A stretch of 64,000 nucleotides of DNA from Lineolata rhizophorae (taxonomy: Eukaryota; Ascomycota; Dothideomycetes; Lineolatales; Lineolataceae): the NCBI GenBank assembly GCA_010093515.1, contig MU001675.1:887371-951370 (forward strand), written 5' to 3'. The notes under the pieces were generated by a model that did not search any database, was not told the DNA's origin, and saw only the letters and a program-made list of their open reading frames with translations. The stretch's first letter is position 1, and the number at the start of each line of letters is the position of its first letter. The position numbers and the translations under genes are program-made. Of the stretch, positions 15,431 through 60,159 are shown piece after piece.

Positions 15431-18400
15431 TCACACATACGCCTCCCAATTCCCGTTCCTCGGGTCCACCAAGTACGCCTCGACCTCGTCATCCGACGGC
15501 CAAGGGCCCCACTGCCTATTACGCTCGAAGATGCGCCGCGCCTCGGCGATGCGGCGCGGCCGCGCCCGGTGATCCATGTCGGCCAGGACCTCCTGGAACC
15601 AGAGCTTCTGGTCCAGCGCGACGAGGGCGCGCTCGCGCCTCCAGCCGAGCGGCTTGCGGCTTTGCGGGAGAAGCTCCTCCCTGTCGTAGTCGTCCTGGCC
15701 ATCGTGGGCGTGGTAGACCTTGCGAATGGGGGGTGCTTGCCACCCCGTCATGCCGCGTTCGTCGTTTGAAGGCGATGGGCCTGCCTGGGACTCTCTCTCG
15801 CCTTTGTCCGTCTGCTCCGTACTTTCACCGGGTGGCCGCCAACCTACGGTTTCTTCCGGTCCGCTTGCGGGCCCTTGCTCTTTCCCCATTTCAGTCGCTT
15901 GGCGCTCGCCGAGGGGTTTCGGCTCTACGGCTTCATCCTTTTCCTTCGCAATCCATGGCGCCGTCTCCACTTCTGCTTTGCTGTGCTGCCACGAGCGCTC
16001 GAGGAAGACCCGAAAAGGTACGGCGATGAGGCGACGGTGACGGGCGGCGTAGTTGCGCTCGAAATCATGGTAGATGTTCAGCTCCTTTCTGAAAGACGTA
16101 AGCCACCGGCCAAGGGCGATGATGAAACCCCAGGAACGCATGACTCCAAGAGTGCGCAGGTACCAGTGTATAGTGATCATATCAGGGGGGCAGCGGAGAC
16201 GGGGTAGATCCGGGGCGGCCAGAGGTACATAAAGGCCGAAACCATCCGGCATGGGCTCCAGAGGATCGGTGTCCTCCAAATCGATGTTTTCAGACCATGA
16301 TCTTGACGGCCCGTCCATCTCGTCGCTGAGGCTAGCGGGTTCCTGGCTAACCTTTTCGAGACTGGCTTCATCCAACATCCAACTAGTTAGGCCATGTTCA
16401 CCCTTGTTCTTTGGCGGTCCAAAGGATTTGTAAAATAGCTGTTGCAACTTTTTCGGACTCTGCAACAGCACCGTCTCAGCGTACTCCACCAGCGACTCTG
16501 TTGGCTCGAGGCCATAGTCTCTAACGCGCTTTAATTCCCGCCTCAGGGCAATCGTTTCTTTGCAGGCGATATGACACATGATGCGAAAGCCTTCCTGGTC
16601 AAGGTACACCCCTCGCGCCTTCATGTCAGCGCAGATCATCTCAGCAACACAAAAACGATTGTGCGCTTGGACGTAGTCGGTCCTTTTTTTCCGCCAGTTT
16701 TGAACCGGATCAAGAGGCGTGCGGTGGAAAAAGTAATCGCGATTGCTCGGTCCATCCGTCGAGGTCGTCGATTCGTAGTCTTCTTGGCAGATTGCGTCCA
16801 AGATGGCATACCAAGCAGGTTTATAGGTTGATTGCTGTGCGCTAACAAGGCGCCAGGCGTGCAAAACAGGATGTTTGAGATCCGTTGATATGTCGGGGAG
16901 GTGATTGTACTCTTCCCGCTTTGAGCGGCAGAGAAGAATCACAAATGCAGTAAGAATATTCCTAGGCAATTTTGGCTCGCGATCGACTTCTGTTCTGGGG
17001 ACAGAGGTGGGGTCGACAGGTGCCAGCAGTGCCCGCAAAGATTCCTCATCCATGTGCTCGCGTAGATAACAGACACCATCTTCTAAGGTCTCGGAATATC
17101 GAGTTAGCATCGCTAGAGTCCTTCCCTTCATCTCCAGGCCTTTCTCCCGCATACGCTGATACAGTTGCTTAGTAGACGGCACAGGTTCGCGTAGATAGAT
17201 CGATTCCAAAGGCGATGATGGTGCCGGCCACACTTCCTTCGAGTCTCCTGGAAGTAACACCCTCAGCTCATCTTCGGGAGTTACAGGGAGCGGCTGGTCG
17301 GGGACGACGAGTTTAGCATTCAGTTTGGAAATCATCACTTGGTATGCCTTCTCGTTCGGCAGGGGCAAAGCCTCCTCACCGGCCAGAAAATACGCCCAAG
17401 CTTCTTCAACCGTCCTCGTTGCCCTAACCCTTGCGGCCCAGAGGCGAAATTGATCCCCCATCGTAGGCCCTTTCGTCAACGATTCGAGACATGCTTTCGC
17501 GCTTAATGACGGGAGAATATCCGTCGGCATACCACGCATTTGAATAGTCGGCGTTCCATCTGTGTCCCATCCCGTAAAGATGCTCGCAGTCTCTTCCCAA
17601 CCAGAAGCAGCATATCCGGCCTGTTGACTTTGACGGAGCGTTTGCCCCGCTTGCGAAATCCCGTACTCCGGCCCTTTTGAAGCATCAATGCCCGACCTGT
17701 CCTTCTTCCACGGAGGCCAAGAGCCAGACTTGAGGAGAGCCCAGTCCGCCTCTCGCCTTGTTTTCTTTTGTGCCAGCTGAACAAGGCTTACGGCCCGGTA
17801 ACCCTCTTGGGTGAGTACAAGGGGAGGGTCGTGCTCAGACATGAAACGCAGAATATCCAATTGGGCCAGTTCTTGATATGTGGCAGACGCGACTGGATCA
17901 ATGGGAGCTGGCAGAGCAACCTGAGATAGCGCCCTATTGAGCATGAAAGATTTCTTTGGAAGACCTACGCCGCTCCCAGACTTAGGCAGGCGTGTAAGCA
18001 GAATGGAAGTGGCCATCGGAATCAGCAAAGGAGCGGTTTTCCGCACCATGCGCACCATCCGGATAAAGAGAAGCATCAGCGTGTCGGAGGTCGCCCAAGG
18101 TCGCTTGTCCGCCAGGGCTCCAGTTTGGATTCGGTGTACCTCGTGTCGAAGCCTAAGCAGCACGTACTCCAGGAGAAACCGCGCCGCTACGGGGCTCAAA
18201 ACCTTGCGACGCAGGGTAGCGAGTATTACGAAGACGGGAAGTTGCTGATGGAGTTTAAGTTCGATGGAATCATCAGGCACTTCAAGGATCCGAATAATCT
18301 CATCCGAATTCTCGCAGCAAAGCAGGTCAGACCACAGAGCGACATCATCCCAATTGTAGCCGCGACCCATCAAATACTCTTGCTCCTCCGTGGAAAATAG

Positions 18401-18961
18401 GCCTTCGACAGACTCTTTCGCTTGCTGGCCCGTCAACATCTCGGGCCGCACACGTTTGATTTCCATCCGCCGAGTGATGAACTTCGCTGTAATGGAATGT
18501 AGTGAGACTTGTGGTGTCTCTACCTCGGGCGGCGTATATTGCTTCTGCTCTGGCATGCTGATCGGACTAAAGTACGAGTAGTCATGTCTCCTCGTATGTC
18601 CAGGTTCATGATGATAAATTCCGGTACGTGCGAGTACGCTGTTTAGTCCAGACGTCCGCTTTTGCCTCCGCTGTCTGATCTTCCTCTTTGACAATGTCTT
18701 GGCCCTTGTCTCCTCCATCCTTGACTGCCAACGTATAGCCCCACTTGGCAACTCGTCCCTAGTCCCAAGTGCTGGCCCTTGTCGCGTTAATCGCGTAACC
18801 TCGGTGTTTTGCGGCGTTTCCGCATCATCCCACTCCTCGTCTTCTGGAGCCCCGTTTCGAGAAACATGCTCGGATATCTTGAGCTTGCTTCCAGTATTAC
18901 TTCCATCTCTAGCCAAGGCAGAAGCAACTCTCTGAGAGGACGACTTGAAATATTGGCGCAA
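15431..18961 (-). CDS. Large conserved, probably mitochondrial protein of unknown function
   Basis: The open frame spans about 1176 residues without an intron. The first in-frame ATG is near 18718, but the frame is clearly coding-like further upstream (RQYFKSSSQRVASALARDG), back to a stop near 19010. In another frame, an ATG at 19149 starts a 56-codon Arg/Ala-rich leader (MLLTARRAAASCGGLGVIRV) that looks like a mitochondrial presequence and ends at about 18979. No good GT donor joins the two, so the true 5' end is unresolved. The body is mostly helical. It contains PPR-like helical pairs around the stretch NRFCVAEMICADMKARGVYL, the motif TIHWYLRTLGVMRSWGFIIA, and WDTDGTPTIQ. My reading is a mitochondrial helical-repeat protein, perhaps in RNA metabolism. 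The function is not established. Confidence 0.65.
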   Translation of the reverse strand: MRQYFKSSSQRVASALARDGSNTGSKLKISEHVSRNGAPEDEEWDDAETPQNTEVTRLTRQGPALGTRDELPSGAIRWQSRMEETRAKTLSKRKIRQRRQKRTSGLNSVLARTGIYHHEPGHTRRHDYSYFSPISMPEQKQYTPPEVETPQVSLHSITAKFITRRMEIKRVRPEMLTGQQAKESVEGLFSTEEQEYLMGRGYNWDDVALWSDLLCCENSDEIIRILEVPDDSIELKLHQQLPVFVILATLRRKVLSPVAARFLLEYVLLRLRHEVHRIQTGALADKRPWATSDTLMLLFIRMVRMVRKTAPLLIPMATSILLTRLPKSGSGVGLPKKSFMLNRALSQVALPAPIDPVASATYQELAQLDILRFMSEHDPPLVLTQEGYRAVSLVQLAQKKTRREADWALLKSGSWPPWKKDRSGIDASKGPEYGISQAGQTLRQSQQAGYAASGWEETASIFTGWDTDGTPTIQMRGMPTDILPSLSAKACLESLTKGPTMGDQFRLWAARVRATRTVEEAWAYFLAGEEALPLPNEKAYQVMISKLNAKLVVPDQPLPVTPEDELRVLLPGDSKEVWPAPSSPLESIYLREPVPSTKQLYQRMREKGLEMKGRTLAMLTRYSETLEDGVCYLREHMDEESLRALLAPVDPTSVPRTEVDREPKLPRNILTAFVILLCRSKREEYNHLPDISTDLKHPVLHAWRLVSAQQSTYKPAWYAILDAICQEDYESTTSTDGPSNRDYFFHRTPLDPVQNWRKKRTDYVQAHNRFCVAEMICADMKARGVYLDQEGFRIMCHIACKETIALRRELKRVRDYGLEPTESLVEYAETVLLQSPKKLQQLFYKSFGPPKNKGEHGLTSWMLDEASLEKVSQEPASLSDEMDGPSRSWSENIDLEDTDPLEPMPDGFGLYVPLAAPDLPRLRCPPDMITIHWYLRTLGVMRSWGFIIALGRWLTSFRKELNIYHDFERNYAARHRRLIAVPFRVFLERSWQHSKAEVETAPWIAKEKDEAVEPKPLGERQATEMGKEQGPASGPEETVGWRPPGESTEQTDKGERESQAGPSPSNDERGMTGWQAPPIRKVYHAHDGQDDYDREELLPQSRKPLGWRRERALVALDQKLWFQEVLADMDHRARPRRIAEARRIFERNRQWGPWPSDDEVEAYLVDPRNGNWEAYV

Positions 18962-19807
18962 ACGGCAGCGGGGAAATGCTACGGCGTGGTCAAGGCACTG
19001 AAAGAGCTGTCAATAAGGTTCTCTGGCCAAGCAAATAGGACGGGATTGCTCCGAACAGTTTGAAGAGCTGGGCCACTAGCAATGCGGGCGACGCGGATGA
19101 CGCCGAGTCCTCCGCAGGATGCGGCGGCGCGGCGGGCAGTCAACAGCATTCATTGGACGCAGGTCGAAATAGCCCTAGAGCGCCAAATGGAAGGGTTCGA
19201 AAGCTCCTTTCCCGTTCAACAAGAGGTCTGTCGTGGCGCCGGCGATGGTCGAGAGCTCGAACTCTAATGTACCCCTACAGCAGTCCAGAAGGTTTGCGAT
19301 TCGCGATGCGCACTCTGCACGTGACCTTCCAACCAATAAGCGGCCTCGACCGAATGGGCTCTGTAGACCTCAAACATCCCCGATCTCTAATGTAGAACGC
19401 CTCCAGAACCCTCGCTCATTCTTTAGAATTTTCCGTAAAGTAGGCACTTCCGCGTCGATAGATCTTCAGAAGGCGCTTAACACCAAGCTCGTGGTTTTCA
19501 TCCGAACCGCGACTCGACAGCCAGCCGATCCGCCAGCGCATTGTCATCGTCACTTATGGCTTCCTTACGCAACGAGGAGCTTCTGACACGAGCTGAACCA
19601 CCTGTGTGACTTCCCTGGTCCCGAATCAATTACATTTCTGTGTTCCTCCGCGAGACGAGTAGGCTTGAATCGAGTCCTAGCGCATTCTACGAACTCCACT
19701 ACGGTGCACGTGCGATTGCACGCTGGTGCGGAGGATTGCGCATTTGACGGGCTTTAGTCTTCTCACAAGAACACCGCTATCTTTGAGACTCTCCAAGCCC
19801 AAGAGCG
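18962..19807. promoter_or_regulatory. Divergent region, large mitochondrial gene / MON1
   Basis: This stretch holds the unresolved 5' end of the minus-strand gene (leader at 19149-18979) and the MON1 promoter. Other open frames here are short and unremarkable. Confidence 0.4.
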
Positions 19808-46621: not shown

Positions 46622-49435
46622 TCAGTATCTTTCGATGAGCCACCCCCGCCGCTCGTCCTCGGGCATATCCATCAACATTTTCTGCTCCTCCCTCTTCATC
46701 ACGATATAGCGATCGACCATATCCCCGCCCAGCAGCTGCTTAAACTTGTAGTCGGTCTCGAGCCTGTCCAGTGCTTCCGCCAGACTCGCCGGCAACCGGC
46801 GTGTAATGCCGTACTCACTCCGTTGCTGCTCGCTCATCTTGCTTGGGTTGACTGCGCCTCCACAAAACTGATCGTTAGCAAAGTCGTCTTTTCTTGACCT
46901 CGACGATGAGCTAGACTCAACAGAAGGAAACTTACACGGTGTATCCTTCATCTCCGTGCTGTAGTCCGGGTGGTCCACGCCGATAAACCCCGCCGCAATG
47001 ACCGCTCCAAGCGCAAGATACATGTTCGCCATGCCGTCCAGACACCGCACCTCCCAACGGCCCTCCTTGACGCGCCGCAGCGGCGTCTCCCTATTCTCCG
47101 TGCCCCACGCCACCCACGTGCCGCCCGTCCAGTGGTCGTCGGCGACGCGCTCGTACGACACTTCCTCCGGCATCGTGAAGGCGCACACGCTCTCTAGGTG
47201 GTTCAGCACGCCAGCCCAGAAGGACATCTCGTCTTTGCGCGCCTTCTCGAGCGAGGTACGTGAGTGCAGCGACACGTGCGCGTGCGCCGCCGTGCCCGCG
47301 CCCCCGGGGAATGGCTGCGGGTGCAGCGTCGCGCGCAAGCCGTGCGAGTGCGCTATCTGCGCGATGGCGGTGCGGGCTTGGACTAGGGTGTCGACGGCGG
47401 CGAGCGGCTCTTGGGGACCCAGCACGAACTCGTACTGGCCGGGCCCGGACTCGGAGTGGAATTGCTTGACGTGAATTCCCATGGTGCTCAGGGCAGAGCT
47501 GATCTCGGCGAGCAGGGGGAACGCCGTGCTCCATTGTTCAGGGGTGACGGTGCCCCAGGCATGGTTGGTGGTCAAGGGTGCGTACGTGGACGGGGTGGAG
47601 GACGAGCGCTTCAGGAAGGTGACTTCGATTTCGAAGCCGACGAGGAGGTGGAGCTCAAAGGAAGAGAGATCGTCGCATCGTTCCTTTAGGCTACGGCGGG
47701 GACACTCCGGTAAACGTTTCCCGTCGGCATCCGTCCAGAAAGCCATGACGGTGGCTGAGGGGAGCGGGTCCTTGGGGTGCGTGCGGCGCAGCGTGGTCAG
47801 ATCCGGCTCGATGTATATCTGGCCCGTAGTGTTGGCGACGGAGGTAACAAAGTCGTTCTGCAAGGTGCCCTTGTTGCCGCTGGAGATTCCGAGACGGTTG
47901 TCTGACAAGATAAGATGGTGGAATTCGCCCACAGGAAGGACGCGGGAGCGCAATGTACCCATGTAGTCCACCCATTGAACATAGACGTACTCGATTGAAG
48001 GATTTTGGTCGAGGAACCCGTCGAGAATACTAACATCATAAACGTCTGATTCCGCCCGGTCTCTGATTGCTAAAGGGATTGTCGATAGCTCAATTTCAGG
48101 GGCCTGTAAGCGCAATTTGTACAGCCGATTTGAGTTTTCGAAAAGAATATTCGTCGCTAAGTCGACGGCCTCGGACGCAATAAGGTCCCTTTTGTATACA
48201 TAGTCCACAAGAACCTAGTCCAATAAATCAGAACTACTCATACGACAAATACCAGGGTTAGGCAAACGAATTTCTGAGAGTTGAATCGATACCTCTTCGA
48301 GAGCTTCTCGAAACTGCTTATTCGCAAGCCAGTATGTCTCCGGCAAGAAATGCCCATCAGTACTCCACAGGACCTTCGTCCCCGGGACCAGCTCAAGCGA
48401 TTGGCGTAGCACAGAAATCTCGCCGTCCCTACTAAGCATTGGAAAGACCTCACCCACGTCAAGATAAACATTAGCAAAGACGGTCGCCAGATAGCCGGCT
48501 TCTCTCGTGTACGGATATGCCGAGTGCAGCAGCACAAACGGAACCATTTCGTACTTTTCTATGAGTGTCTGGAGGTAGGCTGGGTTACTTCTCCGCAGAC
48601 AGATGTCTGAGTCGCCCAAACCAGTGTGGAATTGGAGTGGCTTCGTCCAAGTCGTCGTCTCCAGCACGCTAGCCAAGACATCGCATGTCTTAAGTACCAG
48701 ATAATCATTGATGCACTTCTTATTGATGCGGAATTCCCGATGCCGCAGCGCCCTTGTTAGATAGCGATCAAATGCCCGCTCCGCATCCTCTGCCACGACG
48801 TCCAAATCCGTGTCTACGTGCAAGCCCGATCGATAGCACACGACGCTCTTGAAGGCCGCGACAGCTGGATCCTCTACTGCCACAGTCAATGCTCTCTCGA
48901 ACCCCACCGTGAACTCATACCACGTATCCGCCAGGAAACCCTCCGCCCGCGCATCATCCTCGCTTATCTTGGCAAGAATGTCGGCGATGAGGTTCTCCGC
49001 GACCGTCTCGATCCGGACCACACGCTTCGTCGGACTAGGAGTGAACTGGTCATGCCAATGGAACGGGAACGTAGCACCAGTTCCCGATAGGCCGTCGTCC
49101 ATGAGGATGCACTCCGTCCCGGCCAGACACTTCCGATAGAGCTCCGCCGGGTCCGTGGCCAGCTGCTTGTCTCGCGCCTTCAGCACCGCATCCCACGACG
49201 CGTCGGCGGCGCAGCCGTACAGCTCGCGCAGCTGCTTGGACGCGCGTAGGTGGGCCAAAGACGCCTTTGCGTCTGCTAGAGCCGCGCCCCGGGCTTCCGT
49301 CGTGGCCGTCTCGAGCGGGTGATCGCGCAGCCGGTCATACCGCAGGAGGTTGTGCGCGTGGTTGTCGATGACGGGACAGCGCTGGGCTGCCGCACGGACT
49401 GACTCAACGGAGACTGGGTTCTTCTGGGCCGCCAT
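46622..49435 (-). CDS. fluG: FluG: amidohydrolase-glutamine synthetase fusion
   Basis: In Aspergillus nidulans FluG makes an extracellular signal that starts conidiation. Exons 49435-48293, 48214-46936 and 46851-46622 give 883 residues (A. nidulans FluG is about 865). Residues 1-381 are an amidohydrolase-2 domain with CPVIDNHAHNLLRYDRLRDH (metal His 26 and 28), FVLLHSAYPYTREAGYLATV and LWSTDGHFLPETYW. Residues 382-883 form a glutamine synthetase type I domain with YVQWVDYMGTLRSRVLP, FHSESGPGQYEFVLGPQEPL, AAHAHVSLH and the C-terminal FKQLLGGDMVDRYIVMKREE. The ATG at 49435 starts MAAQKNPVSVESVRAAAQRC. Intron 1 falls exactly at the domain boundary (REALEE/VLVDY). Intron 2 is 84 nt, in frame and free of stops, so it could be retained. 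It is divergent from the GHKL/NO VEIN gene. Confidence 0.94.
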
Positions 49436-50257
49436 AAATCGCAACTACATAATAGAGTGACAATTTGATCTCGTAGTCGACGGCTTGAACGGATCGTGGG
49501 GGCACAAGTGAGGGCCGCGGTTGTGAGCGCGTAACGTGCAGCCAACCTTGCACTATCGATAGGGTCAACCGCGCAGTGTGTATGTAGTATGTACATAGTA
49601 CGTATCGGGCGCAGGCCGACCAGACAAACATACAGCGTAACCACTACAGCCACATATCAATACAGTCAGTCATGGGGCAGCTACACATCATGGTGCGGTG
49701 TCCTAAGTCCATCGTCTCAAAAGATACTTTGACTTTCTTATATTTGCGCGAAATAACCCTTTATCCCGGCTCCTAGGCAATTTGCAAACATATCACTCAC
49801 AATGCAGGTCCAGCAAGCGCCAGCCCTGTTCGAATGCTCCTTCACATTGCCACTTCCTGGCAACCACCATCATCAGCTAACATCTTTTCAGGTAAAGATG
49901 TAATAATTTTGTTGTATCGTAGAATATGGTCTGCGGACGTAACTTAGACACATCAAGCTACTATCCGCTAGACAGCAGTTCGGCCTCCCATGTAACCGGC
50001 GCATATTTGCTCGAGAGTTCTGAGCAAGATCGCAACAAAAAATAACTATCTTGCCAGCGCGACTACGTGAAACACTACATGCAGCAAGTCTGCGGAGTAG
50101 GTGGTGCAGGCATGCCATATTCAGGTCGAGAGTTTGACCAAGCCCCTGCTGCGCCGCCGCTGCTGTGCCGCAGCGGCTGGGGGGTGTATTTAGTCCCGCG
50201 AGAGCGCCAGTTCTCCATCGACACGACCAGTTTTCAATCAAATCGAAAGTTCGAGCT
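49436..50257. promoter_or_regulatory. Divergent region fluG / GHKL-NO VEIN gene
   Basis: This 822 bp stretch separates the two start codons. It contains TATGTAGTATGTAC at 49581-49594 followed by ATAGTACGTAT, which are members of the TACGTAGTAC motif set. No open frame here looks real. Confidence 0.4.
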
Positions 50258-53200
50258 ATGGCCTCTCTATCGCGAGAGGAGGGTCGACAATTTATCCGCA
50301 AAATCGGAGTCGATAACGGGTGGATATCTGACGAAGATCGCCAAAAAACTCCAGAGAATGTACTCCAATCAATGGAAATTCTCCTACGGAAACTTGGATC
50401 TTCAACTAAGGCGTTAGTCCACTCTTCTCATCGCCGACCAGACGACTGACTTAGTCCATCTAACCTCATCGTAGACTCGCAACAAATTTGTACTCCAAAG
50501 ACACAAGATTTCTGTACGAGTTGATTCAAAATGCCGATGATAATCAATACGACCGCGCTCGTGCTGCTGGCGAAAGTCCGTTTCTCAGTTTTCAGATTTT
50601 CCCAGACAAAATCATCATCGATTCGAACGAAAATGGATTTACCGAGCGTAATGTCAAGGCAATTTGTAGCATGGGCGAAAGCACCAAATCAAACACCGGA
50701 GGTTACATTGGAGAAAAGGGCATCGGGTTCAAGTCAGTCTTCAAAGTGGCAAAGAAGGTGCATGTTCAGTCAGGACCATTTTCATTCTCCTTTAAGCACA
50801 CGCGTGATTCTGACGAGAATGGCTTGGGGATGGTGACCCCATTCAACGAGGAGTATGACGACCTCCCTCCATCCGTGCGGACACGAATGTCCTTGACATT
50901 CCACGGAATTTCCTGCTTCGAACAGATTGTTGAGGACTTTCTCAACCTACCAGACACACTCCTCCTCTTCTTGGTCCGGCTTGAAAGAATTCATGTCAAA
51001 GTACACCGAAGTGAAGAGGTTACCGAGGACACCGAAATATGCTACCCCAGACAGCAAAGTGTTGGTGAGAGTTTGCAGACCCTTACCAAGGTTTGCAAGC
51101 AGAACGGCAAGGAGCTTCGAACCCACAACAAGTACCATGTTGTTCAGAAAGCCATTGTCAATCTTCCACCCGATGCCGCACGGGCCAGTATGAACCATGC
51201 AACGGTGGTCCTCGCTTTCCCCATCAATGATTCGGATACGCCAATCGTGCAGCCACAACATGTCTTTGCGTTCTTGCCCGTCCGCAAGGTTGGGTTTAAC
51301 GTACGTATATTCCTCTCAAACAGCTCGTGGAAAGTAATACGAATATCCAGCTAACAATTTTCAACTAGTTCCTGATCCAATCGGATTTCATTACGCAGGC
51401 GAACCGAGAGGATATCTTCCATTCTCCTCGGAATCAGGCCCTTGTTTCTGGCGTTGCAGATGCTTTCCACGATGCGGTGATCAGGTTTTGCCGTCATCCA
51501 TCTCTTCAGTATTCGTGGATGAGGTACTTGCCGACGGATACTATCCTCGACGACTTTTGGGACAAACTAAGGGAGCAAATATATTCGAGATTAAGGACTA
51601 CAGCCATTCTGAGGTCAAGGCTTGGTACTCTCCGGGGTCCTGGTCAGCTTCGCATACTGTCAGCCGAGTATTGCGATGATGACGGCGAACCACTCGTGGC
51701 CGACCTAACCCCTGAACTCTACCTATCGGACAAATATAGGAAGGGTGATGTGAACACTCTACGGCTGCTGGGACTTGCGGATCTTCGTCTCCCCGAGTTT
51801 CTTGAAAGATTCGGGGCGGATCTCGAACGACAGGAATCCCGTTTTAAAAACCCCAGCACTGATGACGCATGGTATGCAAAGATTTCGAATGTTCTCTGCA
51901 GGCCGTTCGAACGGCGACAATTGTCTAGCCTCAAGAACACAGTCAGAGATCTCCCCTTGATACCTTTGCAAGACAAGACGTGGGTCTCGTCTCATGCCAG
52001 AACCTATTTTCCCACCACAGGATCTAGTCCGATACCAAAGGATATCGGTCTTAAACTTGTCCAACCGGAATTAGTCCAGCGTCCAGGCTGGAAGCATCTT
52101 CTTTCACAGCTCGGTGTCGACTTCTGCGAACTTTCTCAAGTGATCTCTCTAATACGATTAAAATACAAGTCACCCCTCGAAAGCAAGGCAGTTACCCCTT
52201 CAGAGTCGGTCTCGCACCTTGTGTACCTTTTCTGGAACCTCCAGGAGCACGAGGACCATATTGACGACTGCATCTGGATTATGGATGACAAAAGGAGAAG
52301 AATTCGTCGGTCATCGTTTAGGCAAATGCCCATCTATTTCAGAGATTTAGATGACTATAAGCCATTCCCGCTTTTTTGGAAGATCCAAACAAAAGACGAG
52401 AACGCGCCAGGACTCGAAGTTAGTTTCATCAATGATTTCTTGTATCTTGGGGCTGTCAAGGACGAAGCTCGAAATCATGGAAGATCTTGGACAGAATGGC
52501 TCGAAGATGTCGTAGGCATAAAAAGAGCTCCTGTACTTGCTGATGGAGAGGGGAAACTTTCTCGAGAATTCAAATACATCATCTCGCATCGCTCTCAGAA
52601 GCTTCTCAGTACGCTCAAGGCCCATTGGGGATTGTACGAAGCTCAGCTGCAAATGATAAAAGCGGCGCTAATTAGCAGCTACGTCACCTCCGACACAGGA
52701 ATGAGAGTGCAGCTTGGGAATTCATATCTTCCCTTACCGGAGCTTAAAGAGGCCGTAGCTTCGTTAAAGATCAGCAAATTTCCATTCGTCAAAATTGACC
52801 AGTCGCTCAAAGACGAGGAAAGGGATGAATGGGCATTTGTCTCTGGCCTCAAAGTTGGGATTCATCTCGATCTCCGCTTCCGCCTTGATGCTCTTGCACA
52901 TGCTGCCATCTTCTCTCCTGCACGTGCGTCCGCTTTCCCCCCTAGAGAACCTTGTCCCGACGTCATCGACAATCTTTTCGAATTTTACGGCGCAATTCAG
53001 TTTAGCTGCAGCACTGAAGAGGAGAAGGAACTTGTTCGGTATGTGCTCGCGCCATCATGACGCTGACTGCTGCTCACTTTACTCTTAGGAAATATTTCGA
53101 CAAAAAGTCAGTAATCTACGTCCCGTTTCGCTTGCACAATGGCGTATGTGCCGAAGCATCATGGAGAAAGTCAAATGAATGTGTATGGGACGCTCCGTCT

Positions 53201-55604
53201 TGGCTCACAACTAAATCGCCCCTCCGTGGCGTGGGGAGATATGATGAACTACGTACCCTCTTCAAGAGAGTACTGAAGGTCCCAGATACCCATTGGGAGG
53301 ACGTGGTCGATGAGTTGAACTTGAGAAAGTCTAAAATGATCGTTGACCCCATAACGCTGGAGTCCATCTATCATCGCCTGATGCGAGATTTCGAACAGGA
53401 TTCAGGCTTTGATCAAATACGGTAAGTAATCCTAAGAACAAAAGATCTCAGAAGAGACTCAATTAATGACATGCGCATATGAAGAGAATACTTTGAAAGA
53501 TTCAACCTGATTTATGTGCCGTCAAAAAAGACTTGGTGTGCTCCGTCATCCTGCCTTTGGGCAGAGGATACCATACAGATTCCTCGCAAAGAATCCATTG
53601 CAACTCCATACGCATCCCTGGAGGGATTTTTTACAAAGATACTGGGTATACGCACACCGGACGTTGGGATGCATGTCCAAGCGTTACTGGAACAAGCTCG
53701 AGAACTAGCTCAGGGAGTGGATCCCGTGACTCATTCTGAGAAACTCAAGGAGAGAATGACAATTATTAGCTCCATGAAACCGACGGAAACTGACCTAGCC
53801 CCTCTCCGCAAATCTCGAATTTTTCTTGTCAAGTTATCGGGTGGCACAATCAACTGGGCTGATCGAGACTCGGACTTCGCTATTGCAGATAAGCCAGAGT
53901 ACCAGCTTGCTTTCCAAGGTAAAGCCGCGCTTTTAGACTTCACTCTTGCGGAGATCCGTGCATGCATGCTATTTTTGATGGCTTCCGGCCTTGAAAGACG
54001 CTACATGTCCCTTGCGGTTGACGAGCAAACGGAAGTTGAAGGCGGTAATTCGGAGCCCAAATTGACTGATAAGTTCAGATCAAGGGCGTACGCTTTCTTT
54101 CGGTAAGACCGGAGGCAAAATCACTCCCTCAATCAGCAGTGCTGACAAAGCGACTAGCTGTGCTGTTCATTATAGCAGTCCCAAGGTTACGCACAGAAGC
54201 CGTTCGCTCTATGATCTTTTCGTAGCTGCTGAAGTGTATGAAAGCGACGGTATATCAAAGACCATGACGCTTTTTCAGTATGACAAATTCATCAAAATTG
54301 GCGGCAAGAAATCCAACTTTCATCTTGACGACAATGGAGATCAGCTTAGATTATATGTGCCTAAGAACAGAACGGATCGCGACCTCTGCTTTCTCCGGCA
54401 GCTCCCCAAGAGATTGGTTGCTTTCCTCTCGATTACGGAGCCTAAAGCTGAGTCTATCATCCAGAGCATCCTGAACTGTTCAGGTCTGCCCATTGTCGAC
54501 GAAATCCTGAACGACGAAGGAATCGTCGAAGTCGAAGGGATTGATCGCCCAGCGGAGTCGGACATAGAAAGCGAGCAACTTTCCGAAAACGAAGCAGCCC
54601 TCACTTCTCCACATCGTTCTCGGCTTTCGAGTGCGATCTCCGAGACTGCCCATTCGGAAGTTTCAGGAGACGAAGATGAAGTGCAGACCACGAGTACATC
54701 CCTCAGGTCAACCAGAATTGGCCACGCAGCTAGACAAAGAAGTTATGTCCCTTTTGCATCGCCGACGCCAGCCTCGAGCCCAGAGATCGAATTGCAGGAG
54801 CCCGACCAACAAGGAGAAAGATATCGTGCGCTCCTCAACCATGTCATTGTCGCCGCATCTAGAGCTACATTCCCAATATGCCGGACGGCTACGATAGCTA
54901 TAGGCGATGGTGCAAGGTTTGGTACAGCCTTTCTGGCACTAGTAAACAACTTTACGGTCCGTTCGCAAATTCGGGATATTAAAGTCGGAGCTGCCGGAGA
55001 GCTGTTTGTAAGTCGAATTCTCTCTACATTCGCATCTAGGGTCCAGAGTACTAATGCGACCTCAAGGTGTTCGAGCTCCTCAAGCAACTCAAACTTCCTC
55101 AGTTTTCCGCAGAAATGTGGAAAAGCACGATTCGCAAAGAAGTCAAGGTCCATGAAAATTATTCTGACTTGGAGCCGTGGCATGGTGTCGAGACCGCCGA
55201 CATTGTATACCCTGATGGTGAGGGTGACTTCACGAGGCTTCTGATCGAGAGGGGGTATTTTGGGCCTGCTTGGGCGAACGCCAAGCCGACGTATTATATC
55301 GAGGTCAAGACCACCACGGGAGAATGCGCAGATGAGTTCTACATGAGTGGCGCGCAATACAACCGAGTAAGTTTGGAAGCCGGTCTTGGAACGGAAAGCT
55401 CGCTTGCTAATGGCGGCTGCGGAACAGATGCAAGGAATGAGATTAGAATCTGACCGGCCGGCCGCAAATGTTTACATGTTATTTCGGGTTTTCAACCTTA
55501 CGAGGGAGAGCATCGGCCTCCGGCTACACTTGGACCCCGAGACCTGTAGGCGGGAGGGTGAGCTCTCGTTTCACGCTGACAAGTACGCAGTGAGACAAAC
55601 TTGA
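50258..55604 (+). CDS. Sacsin/NO VEIN-type GHKL ATPase with C-terminal restriction-endonuclease-like (DUF3883) domain
   Basis: Eight exons (50258-50412, 50475-51300, 51369-53038, 53089-53421, 53485-54102, 54158-55007, 55067-55366, 55428-55604) give 1642 residues, with every junction in frame. The N-terminal Hsp90-like ATPase has the N-box FLYELIQNADDN (64-75, Glu 67 and Asn 71), the G1 motif DSNENGF (101-107) and the G2 motif GYIGEKGIGFKS (128-139). A long, mostly unassigned middle follows. A Ser/acidic linker lies at about 1320-1400. The C-terminus is a NO VEIN domain: VGAAGELFVFELL (from about 1477), ETADIVY (Asp about 1529), YYIEVKTTTG (Glu 1563, Lys 1565), YMSGAQYNRM and VYMLFRVFN. D...ExK is the core of PD-(D/E)xK nuclease folds. 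Plant NO VEIN acts in development and auxin response. Prokaryotic relatives of both domains occur near defence genes. The role in fungi is unknown. Confidence 0.9.
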
Positions 55605-57740: not shown

Positions 57741-60159
57741 TCACCCAGATCCACCACCCGCCTTCCCGAACACCTCGCTCCTCCGCCCCAGGCTCGTCAG
57801 CACCTGTAGGCCATCGATCCATAGCCCCGCGCGTACGTAGAACCCCATGAGGATCTCGCCTTTGCGGGTGTCCAGCAAGAACTCGCTCCCACCCGGCTTG
57901 CCGCCTTTCTTGCCAAAAAGCTGGCTCGTCGAGTCCTCGTAGACGAACTCGATCCCATCCACCGCTATGCCGTGGTACACCTTGATCGCTGTAAGCAGTT
58001 TCGTCTGGATGGTTGCGCAGTCGAGGATAAGCTCCTCCGGGGTGCTGCCCTGGAGCTTGCTAAAGCCTAGCTTGGAACCGCGGAACCCAGCTCGGCCGTC
58101 GGGAAGCCGGAGACGCGAGGCCTTGGACGCCAGAAGCCCAAAGTCCTCGATGGTGTGCTTGCCGCCGCCCGCGGAGTGGATCTCGAGCCGGAGGCGCTTG
58201 TTCTTGGCTTCGGGTAGGCGCGCCCGCAGGTCCGATTCCGTGAGCGTCACCTGCCTACTGGGCAGGCCCATGCCATTGGAGTCGGCGTACTCGATCCAGG
58301 CGCGGCAAAGCTCGTCTCCTTCGGTGTAAATTTCGGTGAAGGCAACGCCCGAAGGCGCCGTGACGAGGACGTTGTTGTTGTCAACGGCCCAAGCGGTCAC
58401 GCTCTCGTCCTGGCCTATGAAACTTGCCGGGGGGTCGTTTGCCTGGCGGAAGCACGGGTGGTAGCGGAATCGAAGGCAGTCAAGACGATGCCAGGAGCAT
58501 TCTTCGGCAGGCAGGCAAATTCGCTTGCCTTGAGACCCAGTCCGTTTACTCGCGGCTTCCTTCACGCAGAACGTGCGGTTGAAGCGCGTATAATCCCGCA
58601 GCATGATACCCGATTCCTGGTGTGGGCAGCCAAACAAATGACCCGTTTCATGCAAGTGGGCGCCGATGCCGATGTTGGCAGCCTCCCAATTAGTGCCCGA
58701 CTCGTTGCTGTCGTTGGCGACGTGCTTGGTGTCTGTTGGCGTCGTATCCGTGAAAGCTGGAACCACTTCCTCGATGCTCGCCGGATAGCTCTGAAGCGCG
58801 TGGGAGCCAAAGATTGCTAGCTTGAGCGTTTCGTCGCCACCGCCCAGCGCCGCATGACCACGAATGACCTTAACCTCGGGATCCCAGTGCGAGTCCAAGA
58901 ACATGGCCGACACGTATAGGCGCTGGCCGGGCCGAGCCTTGAAGTAATCCTTGACAGCCTTGGAAGCGATGACGAACAACTCGCCTCTCTTGGTACCCTT
59001 GTCATACTGCTGAGCTAGGTCCAGGTCTCGAAGCTCTTCAACAGTCTTGTCGCATTTGATGACGTGGATCCGCGCTTCGTTGCGCATCTGCCCGGTCGCC
59101 TGGTCGTGGTATGTCAGCGTGCCCTGCTGCCACTCCTCCTCATAGCGGAAACAGCGTCGGCCTAAATGGTTGCGATTCATTTGCTCGCCCGTGAAGGCCT
59201 GCCACAGATAAGCCGCCATGCGGAACTTTCGAATCGCCGTAGGCAAGCCATTCCCTTCCTGCTCTACCCTCTCCGGCACTGCATCGTATGTGCCCGGCGA
59301 GTCCTTGGCGAGTATAATAGCCAAATGCAGCGGCGGAGAACCATTCAAAGGCAGGTAATTAATGTGGACATGAGTGGCGTGCGCCGGGACCGCACTGCCC
59401 GACGACAGCTTCGGTGAGGTGAAATCAAGGCGGATGCGGTTCGGACCCGGCTGCAGATGGATCAGTACCTTGAATTGGGAATCGTAGACGGGCCAATTGG
59501 TGGGCGGAAACGATTCCTGGTGATGCCAAACGGTGAGTGTGCCGTCCAGCGGCTTCAGGGACGGGTCGCCGATATGTCCGTACACCAACAGCACTTTCTG
59601 ATTGACCTATTATTTTCACCCAATTAGTTCCAGCCAAGATAGCCCCATTTGTTCAATTGCACGTGTGCCTACCCAAGAATTGTCCGACACGGAGGTGACA
59701 CGCGGAGAAAAGGGCGAGGCAGCCGCTTTCACATTTCCATTCGAAAGTGGTGACAGCGAGCCCTAGAAGAAGGATTGAAGTCAGCAAGGAAAAGAGGTAA
59801 TTTTGCCGAAAAAAAGGAAGAGAAAGAAAGGTGAGTCAACAAGCAGACACAATGCATACATTCAGGCTATAGCGATTCGTAGTCGGCGGCCGGCTCGGCG
59901 GCGCGGTGCCATTGGTCCCGTTGGTAGTCTTGATGCTCGGAGCCGAATCGGTGCTGGGCGGCGAAAAGGAACCCAGGTTGGAATTGAGCGTTGAGTTGGA
60001 CTTCTTGTGAGGTATGTTGCGGCCGTTGGCGAGGCCATTGAGGGTCGGCGCGCTGCCGGAGGAAGAGCCGTTCGGCGTCACGCCTTCACTCGGCAATGGT
60101 TTTTCAGTGCGAAAGCTGGACCGCGACCTCCGGCGGAGGTCTCTCAGAAACGAAGGCAT
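57741..60159 (-). CDS. Zinc metallopeptidase (YIL108W-like) with jacalin-like C-terminus
   Basis: This is a predicted metallopeptidase resembling yeast YIL108W (about 696 residues, function unknown). Exons 60159-59860, 59762-59673 and 59606-57741 give 751 residues. The first 130 residues are Ser/Asn/Pro-rich (MPSFLRDLRRRSRSSFRTEK) and look disordered. From about residue 131 a beta-rich stretch begins VNQKVLLVYGHIGDPSLKPL. The catalytic zinc site is HLHETGHLFGCPHQ, an exact HExxHxxGxxH (His 449, Glu 450, His 453, His 459), followed by SGIMLRDY, which fits a Met-turn. The C-terminal about 150 residues (RAGFRGSKLGF, AIKVYHGIAVDGIEFVYED, LLDTRKGEILMGFYVRAGLW) look like a jacalin-type beta-prism lectin. 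No signal peptide is seen, so the protein is probably intracellular. Confidence 0.85.

Follow-up and report, generated by a model that had tools for sequence, protein, structure and literature searches.

The 64,000-nucleotide stretch of DNA analysed here (the window) comes from contig MU001675.1 of the ascomycete Lineolata rhizophorae and holds, on its forward strand, a gene whose product of 1642 amino acids (aa) joins a sacsin-type GHKL ATPase at the N-terminus to a NOV_C-like (DUF3883) domain at the C-terminus. A previous reading, made from the letters alone (the sequence-only reading), had placed this gene at 50258-55604; these coordinates proved exact after splicing, which gives one intact frame of eight exons with GT-AG borders in 7/7 introns. 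The same reading had linked the gene to prokaryotic defence through relatives of each of the two domains; the kinship turned out to be closer, with the two domains combined in single prokaryotic proteins that hit the TmtA models of PADLOC. The features of the gene are the following.

50258..55604, + strand: whole gene, eight exons, 1642 aa plus stop, one unbroken frame after splicing
50258-50412, 50475-51300, 51369-53038, 53089-53421, 53485-54102, 54158-55007, 55067-55366, 55428-55604, + strand: exons, as spliced
50475..51300, + strand: exon 2, core of the sacsin-type GHKL ATPase (residues 52-327), from Pfam SACS, a prokaryotic profile and a sacsin match among solved structures
50509..50544, + strand: N-box FLYELIQNADDN at residue 64, with E67 and N71; E..QNA pattern in 32/35 aligned rows
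50701..50736, + strand: lid box GYIGEKGIGFKS at residue 128; pattern in 25/35 rows
51405..51407, + strand: R340 in FLIQSDFITQANREDI, candidate S5/transducer arginine; strict motif pattern in 13/35 rows
52245..54980, + strand: middle region, about residues 620-1475, largely without a domain assignment, past the best TmtA stretch (619) and the end of the Calothrix blastp match (622)
54978..55604, + strand: NOV_C-like (DUF3883) domain, interrupted by two introns, about residues 1475-1642; from Pfam below the cut-off, PADLOC TmtA tails and an independent profile
54999..55001, + strand: E1482 in GAAGE, first acidic residue of the E-D-ExK pattern; E in 18/20 prokaryotic tails
55199..55201, + strand: D1529 in ADIV, candidate catalytic Asp; MAFFT globalpair places it on the family's GYD
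55226..55228, + strand: D1538, rival candidate catalytic Asp; several further MAFFT runs place it on the family's GYD
55301..55309, + strand: E1563-V-K1565, ExK motif; E and K in 20/20 prokaryotic tails

The sacsin-type ATPase

The N-terminal part of the protein matches Pfam SACS above the cut-off (E=2.4e-9), and a profile from seven prokaryotic relatives, built without the window protein, matches residues 52-366 at 5.8e-67. When the Protein Data Bank (PDB) was searched with a profile of the aligned ATPase family, sacsin came out best (5v44-5v47, E down to 3e-17) and Hsp90 proteins next; the PDB search with the single 1642-aa protein gave no match at E<=1. The sequence-only reading had called the ATP site complete, and its three boxes are indeed found as FLYELIQNADDN at residue 64, DSNENGF at 101 and GYIGEKGIGFKS at 128. 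The Glu and Asn of the N-box are intact (as in GHKL ATPases generally, E67 would be the base and N71 the Mg ligand), as is the glycine lid (G131-S139). Where that description has to be corrected is the G1 box, DSNENGF, from which the canonical DxGxG is absent, as it is from all seven aligned relatives.

Past the core, a motif like FLIQSDFITQANREDI is found by strict pattern in 13 of the 35 rows, the window counted, and 22 lack it. A basic S5 residue of the R340 kind is described as a possible phosphohydrolase finger of MORC-type proteins by Iyer et al. (2008, PMC2292703), and it is from this source, together with the example of Hsp90, that we propose R340 as a candidate S5/transducer arginine. 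The family matches found for the ATPase are of the sacsin (SACS) and TmtA type, and not of the MORC type (Pfam, PADLOC). By profile, the solved ATPase domains closest to the family are those of sacsin itself, whose C-terminal end carries DnaJ and HEPN domains (PMC3710099) in place of the NOV_C-like domain of the fungal protein; neither DnaJ nor HEPN gave a Pfam match up to E=1 in the 1642-aa protein. Read from its sequence, the N-terminal part is an intact sacsin-type GHKL ATPase with an S5 part, homologous to TmtA.

Kinship with TmtA

In a PADLOC search with the full protein, ten models match at E<=1, and nine of them are TmtA (PDLC03964-PDLC03972), which we take to be the protein of the Tiamat anti-phage system. 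The best TmtA match scores 257 bits (E=9.4e-77) and its best stretch spans residues 43-619, that is, the GHKL ATPase and the region following it; the C-terminus is reached by three of the nine models. The DUF3684 protein of the same genome, also SACS-type and used as a specificity control, scores 59.5 bits over 129 residues. Unlike TmtA, the fungal gene is eukaryotic and has introns, the stretch from the Asp to the ExK motif is longer in its product, most of residues 620-1475 are not demonstrably homologous, and its use in defence is putative. Within this middle region, residues 955-1075 give a weak match to TmtA PDLC03968 (E=0.0025). Tiamat has been located in genomic islands of Pseudomonas (PMC12629846).

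A scan of genome contigs for relatives found two, both cyanobacterial. The protein of Calothrix brevissima NIES-22 (L009 9872-14053, 1393 aa) has, together with three cyanobacterial kin (L010, L019, L089), SACS at the N-terminus and NOV_C at the C-terminus (1.1e-14 in Calothrix); it differs from the fungal protein in being 249 residues shorter and in having 13 residues from the Asp to the Glu of ExK. By blastp it aligns with residues 44-622 of the window protein (E=1.7e-54), the identity being 28.7% over this stretch and 37% in the ATPase core, and within the compared set its best match, after two close cyanobacterial kin, is the window protein. In the ATPase tree, which is unrooted and has no fungal homologue in it, the window protein joins the Calothrix group at no more than 87/47 support, which neither establishes nor rejects a gene transfer from cyanobacteria.

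The set of 26 prokaryotic relatives does not measure prevalence: plasmid records supplied 19 of them, partly chosen by their DUF3883 label (9/9 of one record set plus 10 of a second set of 32, 13 of these 32 having been left out), and near copies occur among the rows (the Calothrix group; Haloarcula and Halobiforma). Viral contigs searched with the fungal ATPase or with the Calothrix protein returned no relative, while the family alignment returned seven loci from them, none with NOV_C by the tail profile; phage records gave a single weak ATPase match. Among the matches listed in the open-licence full-text literature, no title or abstract opening concerned a fungal TmtA/Tiamat homologue.

The C-terminal domain and its E-D-ExK pattern

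The DUF3883 domain of the sequence-only reading finds support in searches other than Pfam. A NOV_C search of the fungus's own genome gave no match, probably owing to the divergence of the domain and to the introns that split it. The C-terminal 169 residues alone match three of the nine PADLOC TmtA models (E 6e-5, 0.0015 and 0.012), each of them modestly. An independent profile, grown from the Calothrix tail over the 26 prokaryotic proteins and gathering 20 of them, reports as its sole domain in the window protein residues 1559-1610 (19.5 bits, i-E 3.7e-8 in a one-protein search). With hhalign, residues 1440-1642 against four Calothrix-type proteins gave a weak E of 0.016, three shuffles giving 0.18, 0.32 and 0.73, and in a whole-protein run the window tail was co-linear on the Calothrix-type tails (E 0.054). 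The fungal tail shares with the NO VEIN C-terminal domain (PF13020) the YIEVK core and the flanking pattern.

The Asp, Glu and Lys of the D...ExK motif are kept in 20/20 prokaryotic NOV_C tails (for Halosimplex, the ExK was scored from the alignment and not from a scripted motif search) and the upstream Glu in 18; the three residues are also kept throughout an alignment of 18 NOV_C domains, 13 of whose rows come from a cyanobacterial PF13020 survey (13 of its 30 NOV_C loci used). In the window protein, D1529, E1563 and K1565 are present as first described. By sequence, the protein has a C-terminal NOV_C-like domain that retains the E-D-ExK pattern. DUF3883 has been termed 'a novel REase domain' by Anantharaman et al. 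(PMC3710099). A comparable architecture is that of paraMORC3, a GHKL+S5 protein with a C-terminal nuclease of restriction endonuclease (RE) fold bearing E-D-ExK, a subset of which are standalone genes; its reported similarity is, unlike that of the fungal protein, to RecB-type nucleases, and paraMORC3 is compared with TmtA here by description only (Iyer et al. 2008, PMC2292703).

The nuclease fold suggested by the sequence-only reading was addressed with structure models. The model of the Calothrix tail (pLDDT 79.5) was compared with known structures by Foldseek, and 48 of the 50 matches listed, many of them near-duplicate entries, are Hjc, RecU/PrfA, HincII and EcoRV, with a best E of 6e-3. 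From this model, the tail would weakly resemble PD-(D/E)xK nucleases. A PDB search with the NOV_C profile gave seven matches to bromodomain and carbohydrate-binding structures (E 0.03-0.6), which we took as chance.

Exchange of C-terminal domains in the family

Six of the 26 prokaryotic relatives are without NOV_C by the tail profile, and other enzymes can stand in its place. In the clearest pair, the Halorubrum protein (L025 6959-11644) ends in an HNH endonuclease (Pfam HNH_2 4.4e-11) and the Halobaculum protein (L032 6875-11758) in NOV_C (Pfam 2.2e-7). The ATPase tree joins the two as sisters with 100/99 support; in this tree the long branches of Halobaculum, Planococcus, Halorussus and L049 are marked as unsure. 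Because the Halobaculum branch is long, the pairing was also checked by blastp: the two proteins are reciprocal best matches in the set, with 23% identity over some 1290 residues of the body (E 3.6e-60 and 1.8e-62). A Chryseobacterium plasmid protein (L044 5890-10728) has a superfamily-1-type helicase as its tail; this tail matches the Mokosh MkoA models, which makes the protein a hybrid of two defence systems. Of the relatives on viral contigs, L051, L052 and L054, which were scanned, end in helicases, with L053 as a near copy; the tail of L048 has no assignment.

Cysteine-rich tails, Zn/HNH-like by eye, occur in Methanomethylovorans, cyano_L037, Ensifer, Rhizobium bangladeshense, L049 and L050. 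None of those scanned passes a Pfam HNH cut-off (cyano_L037 lay outside the scan): Methanomethylovorans scores 15.9 of 21 bits, and Ensifer, Rhizobium bangladeshense, L049 and L050 give no HNH match. With groups drawn by hand, including one of HNH or Zn tails set by eye (these six and Halorubrum), the ATPase tree counts five tail changes for three tail types. On its viral contig, L049 (3751-8514) is one open frame with two GHKL/S5 profile matches (residues 102-413 and 747-1025).

That other nucleic-acid enzymes can replace NOV_C at the same position suggests that NOV_C, too, acts on nucleic acid. This replacement is the best indirect argument for such an activity, and it is independent of the fold.

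Neighbours of the prokaryotic relatives

Restriction- or defence-type neighbours (nearby genes for a helicase, a nuclease or a DNA methyltransferase, genes already known from defence, or DUF1156/DUF499 genes) were found by our own reading at 9/19 annotated plasmid loci (Halorubrum, Methanomethylovorans, Sulfuricurvum with Qat, Ensifer, Haloarcula, Halobiforma, Roseovarius, Chryseobacterium and Rhizobium bangladeshense), a count that has no background control; the other ten have no clear neighbours of this type. On the Sulfuricurvum plasmid pSULKU01 the GHKL-NOV_C gene (L028 7046-10066) lies directly between a NERD-domain gene and the anti-phage operon qatABCD.

A putative ATP-gated nuclease and its alternatives

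The explanation that we prefer, with a probability of about 0.5, is that this eukaryotic gene belongs to the TmtA-type (Tiamat) GHKL-NOV_C family and that its product works as an ATP-gated nuclease. The long middle region would act as the sensor of a nucleic-acid state or of a ligand. On binding ATP, the GHKL-S5 clamp would shut, probably as a dimer. With the clamp closed, the NOV_C domain at the C-terminus would be brought to its nucleic acid, most likely DNA, and would cut it. Such an activity would most likely protect against viruses, transposons or foreign nucleic acid, a role that we favour because of the kinship with TmtA-type proteins; genome defence in the fungus is an inference. A bolder version, which we consider unlikely, holds that fungi carry a working Tiamat counterpart, in which the middle region senses invading nucleic acid or virus replication, the sacsin/Hsp90-type ATP clamp switches, and the NOV_C nuclease destroys DNA or RNA, possibly killing the infected compartment.

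Several observations weigh against the ATP-gated nuclease. The Pfam NOV_C match (PF13020, residues 1557-1610) stays under the family cut-off (16.4 versus 22.1 bits, E=0.0096). The catalytic Asp, which had been named as D1529, is ambiguous, since one alignment method points to D1529 and several others to D1538; the distance from the Asp to ExK is accordingly 34 or 25, versus 13-15 in 16 of the 19 relatives measured, three archaeal relatives having 27-30. Regarding the fold, none of the 545 Foldseek matches of the Calothrix model reaches E<=0.001, the TM-scores are below 0.5 among the matches listed, and the C-terminal exon of the window folded poorly (pLDDT 51.9). Past about residue 620, blastp and hhalign detected no homology to Calothrix apart from the tail: pieces 440-900 and 880-1210 were not better than shuffles in hhalign against Calothrix-type proteins, and residues 1200-1480 gave no match in a run made without shuffles. 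To these add the uncontrolled neighbour counts, the lack of a defence cluster among the nine window frames scanned, and the mechanism of Tiamat itself, called poorly understood or unknown in PMC10740426 and PMC12926258.

Part of this evidence would suit a protein derived from TmtA and recruited to an ordinary nuclear role in chromatin, development or DNA repair, whose nuclease may act on the fungus's own DNA. Plant NO VEIN is nuclear and has a developmental role. When the 30.97 Mb genome (48 contigs) was searched with the whole 1642-aa protein, 4 candidates were scored and this locus alone was returned, with 8 exon matches; it lies in the interior of a 1.32 Mb contig, and the nine frames just mentioned hold no defence genes. 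Some nuclease-bearing GHKL proteins have moreover been suggested to function outside restriction systems (PMC2292703). On the other hand, the nearest relatives found, in a search set without fungal relatives, are bacterial and belong to a family filed as anti-phage defence, and we hold this recruitment to be somewhat improbable, if still worth considering.

It is distinctly less probable that the protein works as a chaperone in the manner of sacsin and uses a dead nuclease fold at its C-terminus for binding. The PDB ranking of sacsin and Hsp90 and the departure of the G1 box from DxGxG speak for it, but the protein has E1482, E1563, K1565 and both candidate Asps, relatives can have an HNH nuclease or a helicase in the same slot, and the DnaJ and HEPN domains went unmatched. 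That the C-terminal match is spurious, and the protein a GHKL ATPase with an unrelated tail, could be argued from the Pfam score, the weak hhalign value and the exon model of low confidence; yet Pfam, PADLOC, our prokaryotic profile and hhalign agree on one terminal stretch, co-linear with Calothrix, and we regard this as very improbable.

Overall, the sequence-only reading is partly supported, and, as far as the 20 prokaryotic tails and the Calothrix model go, no refuting result was met: D, E and K are kept in these tails and the modelled tail is weakly nuclease-like. If the preferred explanation of an ATP-gated nuclease is true, a relative of an anti-phage protein of poorly understood mechanism exists in a eukaryote, apparently in single copy here, and both proteins would be open to study by gene removal and biochemistry. 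By extension from the swapping of NOV_C with an HNH nuclease or a helicase, the domain of plant NO VEIN might also act on nucleic acid.

Genomic setting and other observations

A search of the genome for the SACS family gave, besides this gene, one match under the cut-off and one other strong match, the DUF3684 protein of contig C22 (29500-39000; L088 2064-7307, - strand). This further GHKL protein of sacsin type has an open frame of 1748 codons. It resembles the window protein in its SACS-type GHKL N-terminus and differs in its DUF3684 body, matched across the full profile (E=0), and in having no NOV_C match up to E=0.01; near its end lies an HExxH stretch (AHELAHN).

A low GC content as a mark of foreign origin was considered for the GHKL-NOV_C gene and rejected, because its GC content at third codon positions (GC3, 0.51) is like that of five window frames of at least 250 codons at 27.6-39.9 kb (0.51-0.55). 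The nine window frames scanned comprise glutamine synthetase, amidohydrolase, metallopeptidase, AAA ATPase, class II tRNA synthetase, TPR, GH47 and OTU, and one without a match. A 1192-codon open frame at 15434-19009 (- strand) has no Pfam match at E<=1e-4. The glutamine synthetase and amidohydrolase domains that adjoining open frames carry at 46625-49444 (- strand) resemble the two halves of a FluG-type protein, and at 57744-59606 (- strand) a metallopeptidase (PF12044) carries a jacalin-like lectin match at its C-terminus.

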